From: Burkholderia ubonensis
GTDB taxonomy: Bacteria; Pseudomonadota; Gammaproteobacteria; Burkholderiales; Burkholderiaceae
Reading direction: 5' to 3'
DNA: 64,000 bases
Assembly (NCBI RefSeq): GCF_001718695.1
Contig: NZ_CP013422.1
Span: 1,612,001 to 1,676,000 of the forward strand
The first letter of the stretch is position 1; each line of letters opens with the position of its first letter. The notes under the pieces were generated by a model. That model was not told where the DNA came from, searched no databases, and saw only the letters and a program-made list of their open reading frames with translations. Positions 15,634 to 42,918 of this stretch are shown one piece after another. A program made the position numbers and the translations under genes.

Positions 15634-16397
15634 GAACGTCGTTGTTGGCGGAAAGTGCGCAGCAACGCCGTCGCCCGGCCGGATTCGGCTCCGAACGCAA
15701 ACGGTCGTAATCGTTCGTGTTCGCCCGTAGCGCCATTCATCGTCGTAGCACTCCGACCTAGAAGTCCGCCATCTCACGTCTGCACCAGGTCATCGCTCTA
15801 CATCGGAAGCGGTCGATCTCTCGGCGATCCGTCGATGGTGCTGAACAGCGCTCGAAGCGCTGCATCATGGGTTCATGACGCATCGCGGCCATCGACATCG
15901 CACAACGCTTGTTCACTCCCGGCTCGAAGCACGGGAAACCGGCACGTCGGTGCTTTGAAGCGTCTCCGTGATGCGTACTTTATCGACATCCAGCCAGCAT
16001 GAATTTGTGGAAGATGACAACGCATCTGCAAAAACTGCCAGAGTTTTGCTGATGCACGATGTCCTGTCGGCGGTCCATTGCCGAACCGCGCGCCGATTCG
16101 AGGCGGTCGTTCGGAGACGGCGCCATATACCGGACGATCCGATCGGGATCGACTTTCATCTGCTTCGCCTGCTCCCCGTCGAGCCATCGGCGGAAGCAAG
16201 GTCGTCGATGCTTGCGAAGCAAAATGTCACTTCCGACGTCGACACGGGGCATGCAGATTGCATGGACGAGCCTGACCGAGGCCCCACACGATGCACCTCG
16301 CACGCGCGAAAGCGCGGCAATGTGCATACTGGCGTGACTCGCTCCACCCGCCGCTTGCGGCCGTATCGCAACAGCATCACCACGAGGAGGCTCACGC
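15634..16397. other. Long intergenic region without a supported gene
   Basis: About 760 bp of mixed composition, less GC-biased at third positions than the flanks. Several short open frames overlap on both strands, none with convincing start, bias or family signature. Together with the membrane-protein tail at its left edge it looks like decayed coding DNA. The last 30 bp contain a good ribosome-binding site (AGGAGG) for the DUF2945 gene. Confidence 0.5.
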
Positions 16398-36401: not shown

Positions 36402-36475
36402 TTGTCCACAGATTTTGTTGGCAAGCTTGTGGACAACCAGCCGCCAACGACAGCAAGCCATTGATCCGAAAAGAT
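36402..36475 (+). repeat. DnaA-box-like repeat, copy 1 of 9
   Basis: First 9-mer TTGTCCACA and inverted second 9-mer TGTGGACAA are perfectly symmetric, giving GTCCACA/TGTGGAC pairing. The spacer is 17 bp with the conserved TGTTGGCAAGC. The tail CAAGCCATTGATCCGAAAAG is present but the ATCCTGCGC block is replaced. Confidence 0.85.
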
Positions 36476-36823
36476 TTGATCGGTGTGCGCAGCAAACGCG
36501 CCGTCGCGCATGGCTATCGCATGTGATACGCAGCAAAGCGACGTCGCCGCGGACACCGCTGGTAGCCTCGACATCGCGAACCGTGCGGCTCGGCGATACC
36601 GAATTCATTGAAGCGGCAGTTCATGCCGACCCAGCTTCGTCACGCACTCGCCAGCAGTCCGACGTATTTCAACGATGCGATCGAATGGTCGACCGTGACG
36701 TTTCGATCAGCCGCCATCGCGAAACAACAGCTGCCGTCGTTCCGGAAAGTCGCGCCGACGGGCATTTGCACGCCGTGAACCGCCGCGCAGCGGGACACCG
36801 CGCCACACGATCGCCACATGCAC

Positions 36824-36900
36824 TTCTCCACAGAAAATGTTGGCAAGCTTGTGGATATCCTGCGCATCGCGACGCTAAGCCCTTGATCCGACAGACTTTG
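36824..36900 (+). repeat. DnaA-box-like repeat, copy 2 of 9
   Basis: TTCTCCACA, 17-bp spacer (GAAAA variant then TGTTGGCAAGC), TGTGGATAT, then CCTGCGCAT and the tail CTAAGCCCTTGATCCGACAG, close to consensus throughout. Confidence 0.85.
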
Positions 36901-37016
36901 GCACGTGTGATGCAGACGCTGCGCCAGCCGGGCCGCGTTATGCACGGCTTCGCCGCAGTTCGCATCACGATGCCACGCGGCCAGACCCGCGCTGCACGAC
37001 GTGCGCATCGCGGCAC

Positions 37017-37083
37017 TTACACACAGATTTTGTTGGCAAGCTTGTGGATATCCTGCGCAAGCGTTCGCTAAGCCATTGATCGG
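37017..37083 (+). repeat. DnaA-box-like repeat, copy 3 of 9
   Basis: TTACACACA (one mismatch to the E. coli DnaA consensus TTATNCACA), 17-bp spacer, TGTGGATAT, CCTGCGCA and the tail CTAAGCCATTGATC. The end of the tail diverges. Confidence 0.85.
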
Positions 37084-37272
37084 CCGGCGATTCGCGCGCC
37101 ATGTCAACGTTTCGGCACGGCCGTCGCGCCGCACCGGCGACCCCCGTGCGTCCCTTGACGGCCGCACACGCGACGCGTCACGATCACACGACGCCGCGCA
37201 CGTCACGCGTCGGCGCCACGGGCCGGCCGCTCCGCCCGCATTCGACAACGACACATCACTCCGAGGAAGGCC

Positions 37273-37473
37273 ATGGAACATTTCAACGCAGGGCAAATGC
37301 TGGTCGCGCTCGTGCTCGTCGCGATCGTCGTCTATCCGTACGTGCGCATCGTGCGGCGCACGGGCCACTCGGGCTGGTGGATCCTGACGATGTTCGTGCC
37401 GGTGCTGAACTTCATCATGTTGTGGGTCTTCGCGTTCGCACGCTGGCCCGCCACCGACGATCGGCAACGCTAG
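37273..37473 (+). CDS. Small two-helix membrane protein
   Basis: 66 residues from ATG 37273 with AGGAAGG eight bases upstream. Two hydrophobic segments (about 8-24 and 34-56) flank a basic turn RIVRRTGHSGWW; the GHSGWWILTMFVPVLNFIMLWVFAF half recalls DUF805/DUF5684-like small membrane proteins. It lies between repeat copies 3 and 4 and is the only credible gene in that stretch. Function unknown. Confidence 0.75.
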   Translation: MEHFNAGQMLVALVLVAIVVYPYVRIVRRTGHSGWWILTMFVPVLNFIMLWVFAFARWPATDDRQR

Positions 37474-37538
37474 GGCCTGCTCACGCTTATAACGGGCTTG
37501 CGAACCGGCCTGCGCATCGGATGAGCCGGCCGGCCCGC

Positions 37539-37614
37539 TTGTCCACAGATTATGTTGGCAAGCATGTGGACAGCGTGCGCATACCGGCACCAAGCGCTTG
37601 ATCCGAAAGACTTT
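37539..37614 (+). repeat. DnaA-box-like repeat, copy 4 of 9
   Basis: TTGTCCACA and TGTGGACAG keep GTCCACA/TGTGGAC pairing around the 17-bp spacer. The tail CAAGCGCTTGATCCGAAAGA is nearly identical to copy 5. Confidence 0.85.
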
Positions 37615-37663
37615 CTGCGCGGTGCTCCAAATGCGGCACGCGGCGCGCAACGCCGCCTCCCGC

Positions 37664-37740
37664 TTGTCCACAGATTGTGTTGGCAAGCATGTGGATAGCC
37701 TGCGCATACCGCAATCAAGCGCTTGATCCGAAAGACTTTG
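37664..37740 (+). repeat. DnaA-box-like repeat, copy 5 of 9
   Basis: TTGTCCACA, 17-bp spacer, TGTGGATAG, CCTGCGCAT and the tail CAAGCGCTTGATCCGAAAGA. It is the closest relative of copy 4, so these two may stem from a recent local duplication. Confidence 0.85.
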
Positions 37741-37811
37741 TTCCCATCGCTTCGAATCGGGCAGCGCCCGCCGCCGCGGCCGCGTTGCGGCAAGCGCGGC
37801 GGCCGGCCGGC

Positions 37812-37888
37812 TTTTCCACAGATTTTGTTGGCAAGCGTGTGGATATCCTGAGCATGCGTGACGCAAGTGGTTGATCTCACAACGTTTG
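37812..37888 (+). repeat. DnaA-box-like repeat, copy 6 of 9
   Basis: TTTTCCACA, 17-bp spacer, TGTGGATAT, CCTGAGCAT and a diverged tail CAAGTGGTTGATC. It ends about 55 bp from the penA stop codon. Confidence 0.85.
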
Positions 37889-37942
37889 GCTGCCGCGGTC
37901 ACGACTGCGGCAGCGCCTGCCTCGATCGCCGCGCCCCGCCCG

Positions 37943-38836
37943 TCACGCGAATGTCGCGACCGCGATCCGCGCCGCCGCCGCGATCACGTCGTCCCTCCCC
38001 TTCGCATCGGCGCGCGCCTGCGTGTAGTACACGGTCAGCACGATCGGCCCGCGCGCGGGCGGCCAGAGCACGCCGATGTCGTTGATCGTCCCGTAGTCGC
38101 CGGTGCCGGTCTTGTCGCCGACCTGCCATCCCGTCGGCACGCCCGCGCGAATCCGCTTGTCGCCCGTCTTGTTGCCGCGCAGCCATTGCACGTACTGCGC
38201 ACGCTGCGGCGCCGGCAACGCATCGCCGAGCGCCAGTGCGCGCAGGCTCGCCGCCATCGCGGCGGGCGTCGTCGTGTCGCGCGCGTCGCCCGGCAGCGCG
38301 GTATTCAGTTCGGTTTCCCAACGGTCGAGCCGGAACGTATCGTCGCCGATCGAGCGCGCGAACGCGGTCACCGCCGCCGGCCCGCCGAGCAGCTTCATCA
38401 GCAGGTTCGCGGCCGCATTGTCGCTGTACTGGGCCGTCGCCTCGCACAGCTGCGCCACCGTCATCCCGGTGTCGACATGCCGGCCCGACACGGGCGAGGA
38501 GTTGACGAGATCGGCCTGCGCATACGTCACGCGCTGCTGCAGCAAACCGGGATGCTCGACGCTCCGCGCGAGCACCGCCGCGCCGAGCATCGCCTTGAAC
38601 GTGCTGCAGAACGGAAACCGCTCGTCGGCGCGATGCTGCACGCGCCGGCCGGTCGCGGTATCGAGCGCGTACACGCCGAGGCGGCCGCCCGCCGCCCGCT
38701 CGAGCGCGGCGAACGTCGCGGCGGACGCGATGTCGGGTGCGGCGGCCGACGGCGCCGCGCACGCGCCGACGGTCACGACGAGCGGCGCCGTCGCGGCGGC
38801 CAGCAGCAAAGTTCGACGTTGCGAAGAGTAGGTCAT
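37943..38836 (-). CDS. penA: Class A beta-lactamase, Burkholderia Pen type
   Basis: 297 residues. Catalytic motifs: S78-T-F-K81, SDN at 138-140, the omega-loop ETELN with the general-base Glu at 174, and KTG in [12 protein letters not shown] Cys precedes the catalytic Ser and pairs with C131, as in carbapenem-tolerant Pen/KPC-like enzymes. The signal has a twin arginine ([10 protein letters not shown]) and a lipobox-like VGAC ending at C26, consistent with Tat-exported lipoprotein Pen enzymes. It hydrolyses beta-lactams in the periplasm. Divergent from the LysR gene penR, with overlapping promoters between. Which named Pen variant it is cannot be told here. Confidence 0.93.
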
Positions 38837-38886
38837 GTCGTTTGTCTCGTGGTGAATGGAAGCAGGATGCCGGCCCGGCGACACGC

Positions 38887-38915
38887 AATATCCCGGCTTT
38901 ACGTTTGCCTGACAA
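38887..38915 (-). promoter_or_regulatory. Predicted penA promoter
   Basis: On the minus strand TTGTCA (+ strand 38910-38915) and GATATT (+ strand 38887-38892) are separated by exactly 17 bp and lie about 50 bp upstream of the penA ATG. It overlaps the predicted penR promoter head-on. Confidence 0.5.
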
Positions 38916-38926
38916 GCAACGATAAT
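38898..38926 (+). promoter_or_regulatory. Predicted penR promoter
   Basis: TTTACG (38898-38903) and GATAAT (38921-38926) with a 17-bp spacer, 25 bp upstream of the penR ATG. Overlap with the penA promoter fits LysR-type autorepression coupled to beta-lactamase control. Confidence 0.45.
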
Positions 38927-38950
38927 TGAGCGCTGACAAAAGAATTTCTT

Positions 38951-39841
38951 ATGACAACGCTCCGCCCTCACCTTCCACTGAATGCGTTGCGCGCATTCGA
39001 ATCGTCGGCGCGCCACCTGAACTTCACGCGCGCCGGCCTCGAGCTGAGCGTGACCCAGGCCGCGGTCAGCCAGCAAGTTCGCGCGCTCGAGGAGCGGCTC
39101 GGCTGCATGCTGTTCACGCGCCTGCCGCGCGGGCTCGGGCTCACCGACGAGGGGCGCGCGCTGCTGCCCGTGCTGAGCGACGCGTTCAGCCGCATCGAGA
39201 CGGTGCTCAAGCAGTTCGACGGCGGGCGCTTCCACGAGGTGCTGTCGATCGGGGTCGTCGGCACGTTTGCCCTAGGCTGGCTAATGCCGCGACTGAAGCG
39301 ATTCGGCGACGTCCACCCGTTCGTCGAGCTGCGGCTGCGCACCAACAACAACGTCGTCGACCTGGCGGCCGAGGGGCTCGATTTCGCGATCCGCTTCGGC
39401 GTCGGCAACTGGCCGGCGACGCGCAATGAACGGCTGCTCGATGCGCCGCTCACCGCGCTGTGCACGCCGGAGATCGCCGCGCGCGTCTCGCAGCCCGGCG
39501 ATCTCGCGAACGAAACGCAGCTGCGCTCGTACCGCACCGACGAATGGCTCGGCTGGTTCGCGGCCGCGCAGCTCGAACCGTGGCCGGTCAACGGCCCCGT
39601 GTTCGACTCGTCGCGGCTGATGGTCGAGGCGGCGATGCAGGGCGCGGGCGTCGCGCTCGCGCCGGCCTGCATGTTCACGCGCGAGCTGCAGCTCGGCCTG
39701 CTCGCGCGGCCGTTCGACATCGACGTGCAGGCGGGCGGCTACTGGCTCACGTCGCTGAAATCGAAGCCGCTCACGCCGGCGATGACGCTGTTTCGCGACT
39801 GGATCGTCGCGGAAGCGGCCGACGCCCCGCCGCACGAATGA
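38951..39841 (+). CDS. penR: LysR-type beta-lactamase regulator (AmpR/PenR)
   Basis: 296 residues with the AmpR-type opening [44 protein letters not shown] and effector domain ([26 protein letters not shown]). AmpR-type regulators sense muropeptide intermediates released when beta-lactams disturb the wall and then activate the divergent lactamase gene. Position and sequence fit PenR of Burkholderia. A repeat copy begins 11 bp after its stop. Confidence 0.9.
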
Positions 39842-39852
39842 GGCACGCGTGT

Positions 39853-39930
39853 TTGTCCACAGAAAATGTTGGCAAGGATGTGGATATCCTGGGCACCCGG
39901 CGCGTAACCCGTTGATCTGGCACGAATTCC
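39853..39930 (+). repeat. DnaA-box-like repeat, copy 7 of 9
   Basis: TTGTCCACA, 17-bp spacer (GAAAA variant as in copy 2), TGTGGATAT, CCTGGGCA and the diverged tail TAACCCGTTGATC. First copy on the far side of penA-penR. Confidence 0.85.
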
Positions 39931-40019
39931 AGGTGCCACGTGCGCATCGCGCATTGGCCGCCACAGGATCGAGGCGAACGCGGCCGATTCCGAACTATGA
40001 GGAATCTATCGCGTGACAC

Positions 40020-40099
40020 TTATCCACAGATTTTGTTGGCAAACCTGTGGATATTCCGCCAAAGTGCCGCGCAAGCCACTGATGCAAAAGGGAATTTGG
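40020..40099 (+). repeat. DnaA-box-like repeat, copy 8 of 9
   Basis: TTATCCACA is a perfect E. coli-type DnaA box, and TATCCACAG/CTGTGGATA pair over 9 bp around the 15-bp remainder of the spacer. The tail is the most diverged (CAAGCCACTGATG). This copy shows the A-T version of the arm covariation. Confidence 0.85.
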
Positions 40100-40205
40100 T
40101 AGATCGCGCGCCGCAGGTCAACGATGCGACATCGATTGGCACCTGTGCGTCACCTGTGCGGTGCCCGTTTCACGACCGTCCGACAAGTGTCCGATCGTGA
40201 GCCGG

Positions 40206-40285
40206 TTCTCCACAGATTTTGTTGGCAAGCTTGTGGATATCCTGCGCATCCGCCCCCTAACTCATTGAGCGCACGGGAATTTGTA
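40206..40285 (+). repeat. DnaA-box-like repeat, copy 9 of 9
   Basis: TTCTCCACA, 17-bp spacer with TGTTGGCAAGC, TGTGGATAT and CCTGCGCAT match consensus; the tail reads CTAACTCATTGAGC. It ends about 60 bp before the stop of the small coiled protein gene on the other strand. Confidence 0.85.
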
Positions 40286-40698: not shown

Positions 40699-42918
40699 CT
40701 ACAGCACCGCGACGACCTTCACGCGCCCCGGCTCCGCCGCCGCGACCACCTGGCCGTCGACACGCCGGAACGTCAGCGACACGCTGTCGTCGCCGACCCG
40801 CAGATCGTCGATCCGCAGCCAGTCGACGCCTTCCGGCAGCGCCGGCCGTTCGACCCGCACTTCGTGACGGGCTGCGTCGACGCTCACGCCGAGGCACGCC
40901 TGCAGCATCATGAACGGCGCGCCGGCGGCCCACGCCTGCGGCAGGCACGCGACCGGATACGCGGTCGGCGGCTCGCCGCGCCGGCGCGGGAACCCGCAGA
41001 ACAGTTCCGGCAGCCGCATCTCGAAGCTGACCGCCGCCTCGAACAGCGAACGCAGCAGGTTCAGCACGGCGGCCTTGTCGCCGTAGCGCGCGAGCCCGCG
41101 CGCGGCGAGCGCATTGTCGTGCGGCCACACCGAGCCGTTGTGATACGCCATCGGATTGAAGCGCGGCTGGCCGGCCGCCAGCGTGCGCACGCCCCAGCCG
41201 GTCTGGAACAGCGTCGAGCCGAGCGCATCCGCGACCGCCGCGCCGCGCGCCGGGTCCGGCAAGCCGAACGCGAGCAGATGCCCGGCGTTCGACGCGAGCA
41301 CGCGGCACAGCTCGCCGTGGCCGTCGAGCGCGATCCCGTAGAAATTCGCGTCGGGCATCCAGAACAGCGCCTCCACCTGCTCGCGCAGCAGCTTCGCGCG
41401 CAGCGCATAGCGCGTCGCGTCGGCCGCATGGCCGCGCCGCTGCGAGCACGCCGACATCGCGTCGAACGCCGCGCACGCATATGCCTGCACTTCGACGAGC
41501 GCGATCGGCCCGTCGGGAAAGCGCCCGTCCGCATGGAACACCGAATCGTGGCTGTCCTTCCAGCCCTGGTTCGCGAGCCCGCGCTCCGACGTGCGCTGGT
41601 AATCGAGGAGTCCGTAAGGATTGCGGTCGCACTTGTCGCTCACCCACTGGATCGCGCGTTCGAGCGCGGGCCACAGTTCGTCGATCAGCGCGTCGTCGCC
41701 GGTGTGCTCGACATACGCGCCCGCCAGCACGACGAACAGCGGCGTCGTGTCGACGCCGCCGTAGTACAGCGCGAACGGCACCTCGCCCGTCGCCGCCATC
41801 TCGCTCTTGCGGAACTCATGCATGATCTTGCCCGGCTCGGCGTCACGGAACGCCGACGTCTCGCGCGCCTGATGCGCGGCCAGAAAACGCAGCACGCCGC
41901 GCGCGAGCGACGGCTGCAGCCACAGCATCTGCAGCGACGTGATCACCGCGTCGCGGCCGAACGGCGTCGAGAACCACGGAATGCCGGCATACGGATACGG
42001 GCCGGTGTCGAGCTGCGTCGTCAGCAGCCCGAGATCCGCGAGCGAACGGTCGAGCCACGCGTTGAACAGCGGGTTGCCGGTGCGCACGCGGGCCATCGTC
42101 GCGCGCCGCGCGCGCATCGCGCGGTGCACCGCGACGAGCGCGGTGCGCAACGCGGCGCGGCCGCACCCGGGCGTCTCGCCGCGCGCCGCGCCGACGGTCG
42201 CCTCGACGCTCAGGTAGATCGACACGCACGCCTGCGCGGCGATCGTCAGCCGGTAATCGGCGCGGTCGACCGACAGCGCGTCGGGCGCCGGCGAGAAGTT
42301 GAGCGTCACCGCGCGCTCGACGCGATCGAGCCCGTCGTAGCGCAGCCGCACCGCGCCCGCGTCGATGCGCGGCTGAGCGATCGTGCCGCGGCGCGCGCGA
42401 TGCGTGCCGCGCACCTCGAACATGTCCTTGAAATCGGCGGCGAACGACACCGACAGCGGCACCTCGGCCTCGCTCGCGCCGTAGTTCGTCAGCGTCAGCG
42501 CTTCGTACAGCACGTTGTTCGCGAGCACGCGCATCCGCTCGATGTGGATCACCCCTTCGGGCGTCTCGCGGCCGCCGAGCGGCGGCAGCGGCCGGTTCGT
42601 CAGGTGCGCGGTGAACGACGCGTTGTCGGCGCTGGTCGCGCCCGACAGCAGCGATGGCGCGCGGCCGCCGAAGGTCAGCCGCCATTTCGACAGCACGCGC
42701 ATGTCGTCGACGAACAGCCCGTCGTCGTGCCCGCTGACGTCGCCGAGCGCGTCGCTGACCACGAACGCGTCGCCGGCCTTCAGCACGTACTGGTTGTTGC
42801 GCGCGTCCGCCTGCGGGTCGGCCTCGGGCGCGATGAATGCGGGGCCCGACGCCTGGGTCGGGGGCACAGGCGCGACTTGCGGCGCGCGCGTCGTCGTCTC
42901 GTCGGCGTGATTCGGCAT
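40699..42918 (-). CDS. Amylo-alpha-1,6-glucosidase / glycogen-debranching-like enzyme
   Basis: 739 residues. An N-terminal GDE_N domain (about 40-260; YVLKAGDAFVVSDALGDVSGHDDGLFVDDMRVLSKWRLTFGG) precedes an (alpha/alpha)6 glycosidase domain with GIPWFSTPFGRDAVITSLQMLW, GLANQGWKDSHDSVFHADG and AYHNGSVWPHDNALAARGLARYG. The acids in these segments fit the family's catalytic pair. Expected to release alpha-linked glucose from storage or osmoprotectant glycans; exact substrate open. No glycogen operon is adjacent. Confidence 0.88.
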   Translation of the reverse strand: MPNHADETTTRAPQVAPVPPTQASGPAFIAPEADPQADARNNQYVLKAGDAFVVSDALGDVSGHDDGLFVDDMRVLSKWRLTFGGRAPSLLSGATSADNASFTAHLTNRPLPPLGGRETPEGVIHIERMRVLANNVLYEALTLTNYGASEAEVPLSVSFAADFKDMFEVRGTHRARRGTIAQPRIDAGAVRLRYDGLDRVERAVTLNFSPAPDALSVDRADYRLTIAAQACVSIYLSVEATVGAARGETPGCGRAALRTALVAVHRAMRARRATMARVRTGNPLFNAWLDRSLADLGLLTTQLDTGPYPYAGIPWFSTPFGRDAVITSLQMLWLQPSLARGVLRFLAAHQARETSAFRDAEPGKIMHEFRKSEMAATGEVPFALYYGGVDTTPLFVVLAGAYVEHTGDDALIDELWPALERAIQWVSDKCDRNPYGLLDYQRTSERGLANQGWKDSHDSVFHADGRFPDGPIALVEVQAYACAAFDAMSACSQRRGHAADATRYALRAKLLREQVEALFWMPDANFYGIALDGHGELCRVLASNAGHLLAFGLPDPARGAAVADALGSTLFQTGWGVRTLAAGQPRFNPMAYHNGSVWPHDNALAARGLARYGDKAAVLNLLRSLFEAAVSFEMRLPELFCGFPRRRGEPPTAYPVACLPQAWAAGAPFMMLQACLGVSVDAARHEVRVERPALPEGVDWLRIDDLRVGDDSVSLTFRRVDGQVVAAAEPGRVKVVAVL

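Follow-up and report, generated by a model that had tools for sequence, protein, structure and literature searches.

DnaA-reactivating sequences (DARS) have been characterized in Escherichia coli. Whereas the datA locus inactivates the initiator protein DnaA, DARS sites reactivate it (PMC10380432). At DARS, the head-to-head arrangement of the DnaA boxes I and II and the placement of the site for the integration host factor (IHF) matter (PMC10380432, PMC4245941), and DARS2 additionally needs the Fis sites FBS2-3 (PMC4245941). Furthermore, double DnaA boxes that are 2-3 bp apart are preferred by E. coli DnaA (PMC11317965). Here, we describe a locus around blaPEN and penR of Burkholderia ubonensis, which was analyzed in a stretch of 64,000 nucleotides (the window; positions 1612001-1676000 of contig C3 of a genome of 6,684,845 bases in three contigs). 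Judged from its sequence, this locus is probably a tandem array of nine DARS-type, IHF-linked elements controlling DnaA activity.

The nine elements, referred to as modules, are located at 36402-40283 on the plus strand of the window, all in one orientation and with outer boxes 17 bp apart:

Module 1, 36402-36479, plus strand: box I 36402-36410, inverted box II 36416-36424, inverted box III 36428-36436, IHF-like site 36454-36466 (8/9 matches)
Module 2, 36824-36901, plus strand: box I 36824-36832, box II 36838-36846, box III 36850-36858, IHF-like site 36876-36888 (8/9)
Module 3, 37017-37094, plus strand: box I 37017-37025 (TTACACACA), box II 37031-37039, box III 37043-37051, IHF-like site 37069-37081 (8/9)
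Module 4, 37539-37616, plus strand: box I 37539-37547, box II 37553-37561, box III 37565-37573, IHF-like site 37591-37603 (8/9)
Module 5, 37664-37741, plus strand: box I 37664-37672, box II 37678-37686, box III 37690-37698, IHF-like site 37716-37728 (8/9)
Module 6, 37812-37889, plus strand: box I 37812-37820, box II 37826-37834, box III 37838-37846, IHF-like site 37864-37876 (8/9)
Module 7, 39853-39930, plus strand: box I 39853-39861, box II 39867-39875, box III 39879-39887, IHF-like site 39905-39917 (8/9)
Module 8, 40020-40097, plus strand: box I 40020-40028 (TTATCCACA), box II 40034-40042, box III 40046-40054, IHF-like site 40072-40084 (7/9)
Module 9, 40206-40283, plus strand: box I 40206-40214, box II 40220-40228, box III 40232-40240, IHF-like site 40258-40270 (7/9)

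A two-box pattern with up to three mismatches returned 19 rows on both strands of the window, 17 of which belong to the nine copies and two to one unrelated place at 15980, compared to a mean of 0.05 in the shuffled window. The nine copies of the same orientation and 17-bp spacing, which had been noticed in an initial annotation, are thus real and beyond chance. In the whole 6.68-Mb genome, the core pattern (at most three mismatches) matched nine times, only in the array and on a single strand, and the reversed-pattern control gave no match. The modules are unevenly spaced, and a small membrane-protein-like open reading frame (ORF), blaPEN and penR interrupt the array.

Read as DnaA boxes, each module is composed of box I (module positions 1-9), 5 bp, the inverted box II (15-23), 3 bp and the inverted box III (27-35), with boxes I and II head to head, as in the example core TTGTCCACA-GATTT-TGTTGGCAA-GCT-TGTGGATAT. 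The initial annotation had counted eighteen boxes and had every copy start with TTnTCCACA; copy 3 departs from this by beginning with TTACACACA, and a third, degenerate DnaA-box slot inside the 17-bp spacer brings the count to 27 slots. In the nine modules, box I matches the consensus TTWTNCACA at 7-8, box III at 6-7 and box II at 5 of 8 positions. In each of three module sets, mean DnaA-box matches exceed 5/8 at only three offsets (1 in forward, 15 and 27 in reverse orientation), and 34 modules of other genera reach mean box matches of 7.35, 5.59 and 7.09, a conservation that is partly selected since these modules were picked with the core matrix. An ungapped alignment of 106 copies, taken from 14 clusters within the genus, revealed conserved blocks at positions 1-9, 10-14 (A/T-rich), 15-23, 27-35, 36-44, 53-65 and 66-76, whereas positions 45-52 are close to random (0.18 bits). 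The information content of the middle block (15-23) is 2.06 bits versus 1.86 and 1.98 bits for the outer boxes.

The initial annotation had also reported a conserved tail, which is indeed present, and its "AAGCCnTTGATC tail" fits a reversed IHF consensus: module positions 53-65 read YAANNNNTTGATW, which corresponds to the reversed form of the IHF consensus WATCAANNNNTTR given in PMC4585315. This site has 8/9 matches in seven window modules and 7/9 in modules 8 and 9. At least 8/9 matches are found in 83% of 101 distinct array modules, in 32% of 44 modules of a second locus described below and in 40% of 43 modules from loci L219-L253, compared to at most 0.02% of shuffles. The IHF-like site is followed by an A/T stretch at positions 74-76, and IHF sites carry an A/T stretch at the corresponding place. 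In addition, a weak fourth motif, [GC]GGCA, is present within positions 85-112 of 73 of the 106 modules, most often at position 96-97 (shuffled: 14%).

In E. coli, DARS1 and DARS2 were searched for in the bioD-uvrB and rppH-mutH gaps, which we take to be their locations. The II-III pairs found in these gaps are those given for DARS1 and DARS2 in PMC11317965. The cores in strain MG1655 read TTATCCACT-ATTCC-TGTGGATAA-CCA-TGTGTATTA for DARS1 and TTATTCACC-TTTTC-TGTGGATAG-AGT-TGTGAAGAA for DARS2; both have the same 9-5-9-3-9 bp geometry with head-to-head boxes I and II as the Burkholderia modules, whose II-III pair with its 3-bp spacing corresponds to the preferred "double DnaA box" (PMC11317965). 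A matrix of 35 columns, which was built from 38 Burkholderia modules only (alignment A2) and contains no E. coli input, scored 28.7 for DARS1 and 22.2 for DARS2, and the best score over both strands of one random 4.6-Mb sequence was 21.2. Within 214,904 bp of MG1655, less than 5% of the genome (pieces with DARS1, DARS2, datA, oriC, dnaA and mioC, a uvrB-moaA piece and three further 50-kb pieces), the cores of DARS1 and DARS2 occupied ranks 1 and 2 and the next best match had a score of 14.0; the oriC piece reached up to 9.4 and the 5.5-kb datA piece up to 3.0.

Neither of the two E. coli sites is identical in build to the array. DARS1 exists in a single copy, possesses a strong box II and other neighboring genes and, unlike the modules, has no IHF match with at most one mismatch in the scanned bioD-uvrB stretch. 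Like the modules, DARS2 has its IHF-like sites on the box III side, downstream of the core, but it is a single copy with a stronger box II and depends on Fis, whose consensus is not enriched in the modules. The IHF-like site is phased in the modules, but at position 53-65 rather than at 94-122 as in DARS2. DARS1 and DARS2 are located upstream of uvrB and mutH, whereas the neighbors of the array are a histidine kinase, blaPEN and penR. As the distance of the IHF site differs and the Fis consensus is not enriched, the array is not classed as DARS2; the comparison rather suggests a variant of the DARS type that includes an IHF-like site.

The core motif is present throughout the genus. All 65 Burkholderia genomes, including that of B. 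ubonensis, contain the core pattern (at most three mismatches) with 3 to 11 matches each, a few of which are at the second locus. Matches are confined to one strand in 62 genomes; in G017, G036 and G043, a single match is on the opposite strand, and the one in G017 is the second-locus element. Among 79 penR-linked loci, the 31 loci whose penR is at least 90% identical carry 7-9 modules each, save a 3.3-kb contig with three, and are all labelled Burkholderia, including B. cepacia, B. cenocepacia, B. ubonensis, B. ambifaria and B. dolosa. No module was found in the other 48 loci, in which penR is at most 77% identical. At four array positions of 30 named loci (the short contig was dropped), comparison of 150 random pairs each showed that modules are 85-92% identical between species, the flanks 67-80%, and copies within one genome 70%. 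Since orthologous copies are 85-92% identical versus 70% within a genome, the copies seem to be old, and each of them appears to be separately maintained. In G006 (C46:209614-220230), around 10.6 kb separate the first and second module, compared to 0.4 kb in B. ubonensis; DNA may have been inserted there without loss of a module.

The chromosomal position was determined for 16 of the 65 genomes, which were picked, among the matches listed, for an array on a long contig. In all 16 genomes, the array contig carries a chromosome-2-type parB (parB2), and the box-to-IHF direction points to the origin. The distance of the array to parB2 is 0.165-0.343 of the length of chromosome 2 with a median of 0.255, and this distance led to the rejection of the array as a replication origin. 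Shared gene order may lie behind part of the constant position and direction.

Related modules are found elsewhere in the genus and beyond. A second-locus module, typically TTATCCCCA...TGTTGATAA, is present in 61 of the 65 genomes, usually as one copy and in eight genomes as two or three. In the 15 genomes measured, it is located on the contig with the chromosome-1-type parB, 0.36-0.45 of the length away, and is directed to the origin in 13 and away from it in G014 and G028. In B. ubonensis, it lies between ORFs that resemble PBP1A and threonine dehydratase (names assigned by reading alone). With the broad model R2, 12 matches were obtained in this genome: the nine modules of the array, C3:566602, C3:5771 and one on C1; C2 has none. 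The match at C3:566602-566679 is a full but diverged module on the other chromosome 2 arm with the same tail register and a matrix score of 27.8. At C3:5771-5804, around 3.6 kb from parB2 at the chromosome 2 origin, two DARS-core-like triples overlap on opposite strands and lack the IHF tail. DARS-core-like triples without IHF tail are also present on chromosome 1 at C1:2800047 and C1:57177, the latter just upstream of an ORF resembling topoisomerase IV subunit B (name from reading only).

In the family, model R1 (E ≤ 0.01) matches 166 of 200 genomes and 20 of 25 genera; 23 of the 166 genomes are members of the genus, and 143 of 177 genomes match outside of it, many of them weakly. In 12 genomes outside the genus with long contigs, modules stand alone or form groups of two to four, and single-contig genomes are among those that carry them. 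Model R2 (E ≤ 0.001) matches 217 of 300 genomes of the order, and as many of these matches are weak and consist of the core only, this number is an upper bound for full modules. In 28 loci examined from this search (85,118 bases), 47 of 62 core matches have their best tail match at offset 52-54, and the same loci when reversed contain no core match. The canonical box II TGTGGATAA occupies the middle slot in one module each of two other genera, and some other genera carry TTATCCACA or a sequence close to it as box II. Tandem arrays of six to seven DARS-plus-IHF modules are found in four genomes of f8, another family of the order (G503, G445, G474 and G415; loci L274, L281, L270 and L262); in three of these four arrays, box II is mostly canonical-like (TGTGGACAA or TGTGGATAA). 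As the related modules were selected by models and matrices, part of their agreement in layout follows from the selection itself. Independent of it are the canonical box II, the fixed tail and the absence of matches in the reversed control.

What function could such an array have? In the mechanism that we propose, DnaA would bind to box I and, head to head and 5 bp away, to the double box II-III with its 3-bp spacing, while IHF would occupy the fixed site downstream and bend the DNA there. The DnaA molecules held in this way would interact and release adenosine diphosphate (ADP), as at E. coli DARS, and the resulting apo-DnaA could reload adenosine triphosphate (ATP). The array would thereby raise the level of ATP-DnaA that fires the DnaA-dependent origin of chromosome 1. 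The sequence itself establishes the copy number, the geometry, the fixed register of the IHF-like site, a higher conservation of modules than of flanks, the presence across the genus, the mid-arm position on chromosome 2 in the genomes measured and the specific resemblance to DARS1 and DARS2, whereas we infer the binding of DnaA and IHF, ADP release as the chemical output and any gene-dosage effect upon replication of the array.

Several points weigh against a DARS function. Box II is TTGCCAACA in all nine modules and matches the consensus at only 5/8 positions, while box II is the strongest box in E. coli; the block in the modules is conserved no less than the outer boxes, so that it is maintained and could serve a different protein. 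In DARS2, the IHF-like sites (one mismatch) begin 93 and 109 bp from the first base of box I, compared to 52 bp in the modules, and it was shown that DARS2 is weakened when IBS1-2 are moved by 5-10 bp (PMC4245941). The Fis consensus is not enriched either, as it is present in 13 of 106 stretches of 115 bp versus 9.6% in shuffled sequences. Finally, two DARS were found among 52 similarly arranged box pairs in E. coli, and plasmids carrying DARS at higher copy number are deleterious (PMC5835720), which implies that the arrangement alone is no proof of function. It is tempting to conjecture that the weak box II makes each unit weak and that the number of units compensates for this.

Alternatively, the array might act by passive titration, with the 27 box slots holding DnaA and delaying initiation, its bound nucleotide unchanged, and IHF only shaping the DNA. 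The large number of boxes in 3.9 kb and the degenerate box II, which could impair a DARS reaction, would fit such a sink, and deletion of the E. coli switch loci lowers DnaA binding and titration (PMC12371093). However, a sink requires neither the fixed 9-5-9-3-9 geometry nor an IHF-like site in one register across genera. Moreover, as only one of the 22 perfect copies of TTATCCACA in the genome is found within the array, affinity is not maximized, and we consider titration unlikely.

A datA-like function, in which DnaA and IHF stimulate ATP hydrolysis and thereby shut initiation down, is very unlikely. datA likewise pairs its DnaA boxes with an IHF site that is essential and sensitive to spacing (PMC10380432), but its IHF match is located centrally between box groups that are more than 50 bp off on either side, whereas the modules have a single box core with the IHF-like site outside. 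Membership in the datA class was rejected by this unrelated box layout and by the matrix, which gives the datA piece at most 3.0 compared to 28.7 and 22.2 for DARS1 and DARS2. The initial annotation had suggested a datA- or DARS-like locus; the datA half of this proposal is not borne out, while core geometry, recognition of DARS1 and DARS2 by the matrix and the phased IHF-like site make DARS the best supported of its options.

It is highly improbable that the modules are sites for another protein, for instance a chromosome 2 organizer or a replicon-specific initiator, and resemble DnaA boxes by chance. The middle block TGTTGGCAA, a poor DnaA box in the array but conserved no less than the outer boxes, would be accounted for in this way; yet canonical DnaA boxes fill the middle slot in other genera with the same spacing and tail, and modules are also present on the parB1 replicon and in single-contig genomes.

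That the modules form a family of structured small RNAs or hairpins, as had also been considered initially, is barely conceivable. The outer arms are palindromic, and the arms of copies 1, 4 and 8 do match each other as reported; however, the suggestion that symmetry is being kept does not stand, since arm covariation over 38 modules (0.065) equals that of shuffles (0.064), and of the 44 second-locus modules, 38 have a mismatch at pair 6-30 and 33 at pair 7-29, with no compensatory change. Folding energies relative to shuffles are ordinary for seven of the nine modules (z -0.55 to +0.71), with module 7 at +1.86 and module 8, which folds somewhat better than shuffles, at -1.74. Rfam gave no match at the gathering threshold, and a promoter and terminator scan detected no terminator-like site and only two promoter-like sites, both in the penA-penR gap and thus not at modules; a structured RNA was rejected on these grounds. 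The copy number differs between species, as for an ordinary mobile or dispersed repeat, but the chance of such a repeat, again an idea of the initial annotation, is negligible given nine genome-wide matches at one locus, the absence of modules from five ORFs examined and the old, separately maintained copies.

If the modules act as DARS, the array may help to time the copying of the chromosomes, and a role in coordinating the two chromosomes, another proposal of the initial annotation, is thus possible. It could couple the replicons in a direction opposite to that of crtS, which serves as an analogy only: in Vibrio, crtS is a non-coding site whose replication on one chromosome informs another. 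crtS has been likened to DARS in print (PMC3937223); however, it is located on chromosome 1 and acts on RctB (PMC6090056), whereas the array lies on chromosome 2 and resembles DnaA sites. As chromosome 2 holds most of the DARS-type dose (11 of 12 module matches in the B. ubonensis genome), passage of a chromosome 2 fork through the mid-arm array would double the DnaA-reactivating capacity and might license the next DnaA-dependent firing of chromosome 1, which would then wait for chromosome 2; we regard this coupling as a tentative and rather doubtful extension. At 33 kb/min, the fork speed reported in B. cenocepacia (PMC4948915), replication would reach the array around 16 minutes after firing of ori2 in B. 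ubonensis, provided that the speed can be transferred between species. The same study left the co-timing of chromosomes 1 and 2 as "worth exploring" (PMC4948915), and the array, with most units on the secondary chromosome in B. ubonensis, is a concrete candidate for it.

Among the titles and abstract openings listed, neither DARS in Burkholderia nor arrays of DARS were reported, and no paper combining DARS, DnaA and betaproteobacteria was found. Several statements nevertheless count against novelty: of two reviews that mention DARS-like sequences outside E. coli, one describes sequences similar to DARS1 and DARS2 as conserved in many proteobacterial species (PMC10380432) and the other refers to close beta-proteobacteria, the spacing of DARS2 is described as conserved (PMC5742627), and DARS-like sequences have been reported in Vibrio cholerae (PMC6090056). 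According to Kasho et al., the DARS2 core is specific to those gamma-proteobacteria that are related to E. coli (PMC4245941). If the modules work as they are built, DnaA reactivation driven by DNA would be widespread in the order, with the IHF site contained in one 78-bp unit that can be amplified into arrays.

The genes that interrupt the array provide context only:

37273-37473, plus strand: small membrane-protein-like ORF (DUF805-like) between modules 3 and 4; PF05656, 26.8 bits versus a cut-off of 25.7
37943-38836, minus strand: blaPEN, PEN family class A beta-lactamase of the Bcc type, between modules 6 and 7; NF000320 above cut-off
38951-39841, plus strand: penR, LysR-type regulator, between modules 6 and 7; NF041130 above cut-off

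None of the five ORFs examined around the array contains a module. The penA-penR promoter gap (38837-38950) is likewise free of modules, and regulation of penA by the modules was therefore dropped. A tRNA-Val called by ARAGORN at 40751-40847 on the minus strand of the window lies within long ORFs and is probably spurious. In a blastn search of the array against plasmid records, the top four among the 15 matches listed are Burkholderia records of 2.4-3.5 Mb, and the others mostly reflect beta-lactamase and LysR homology.

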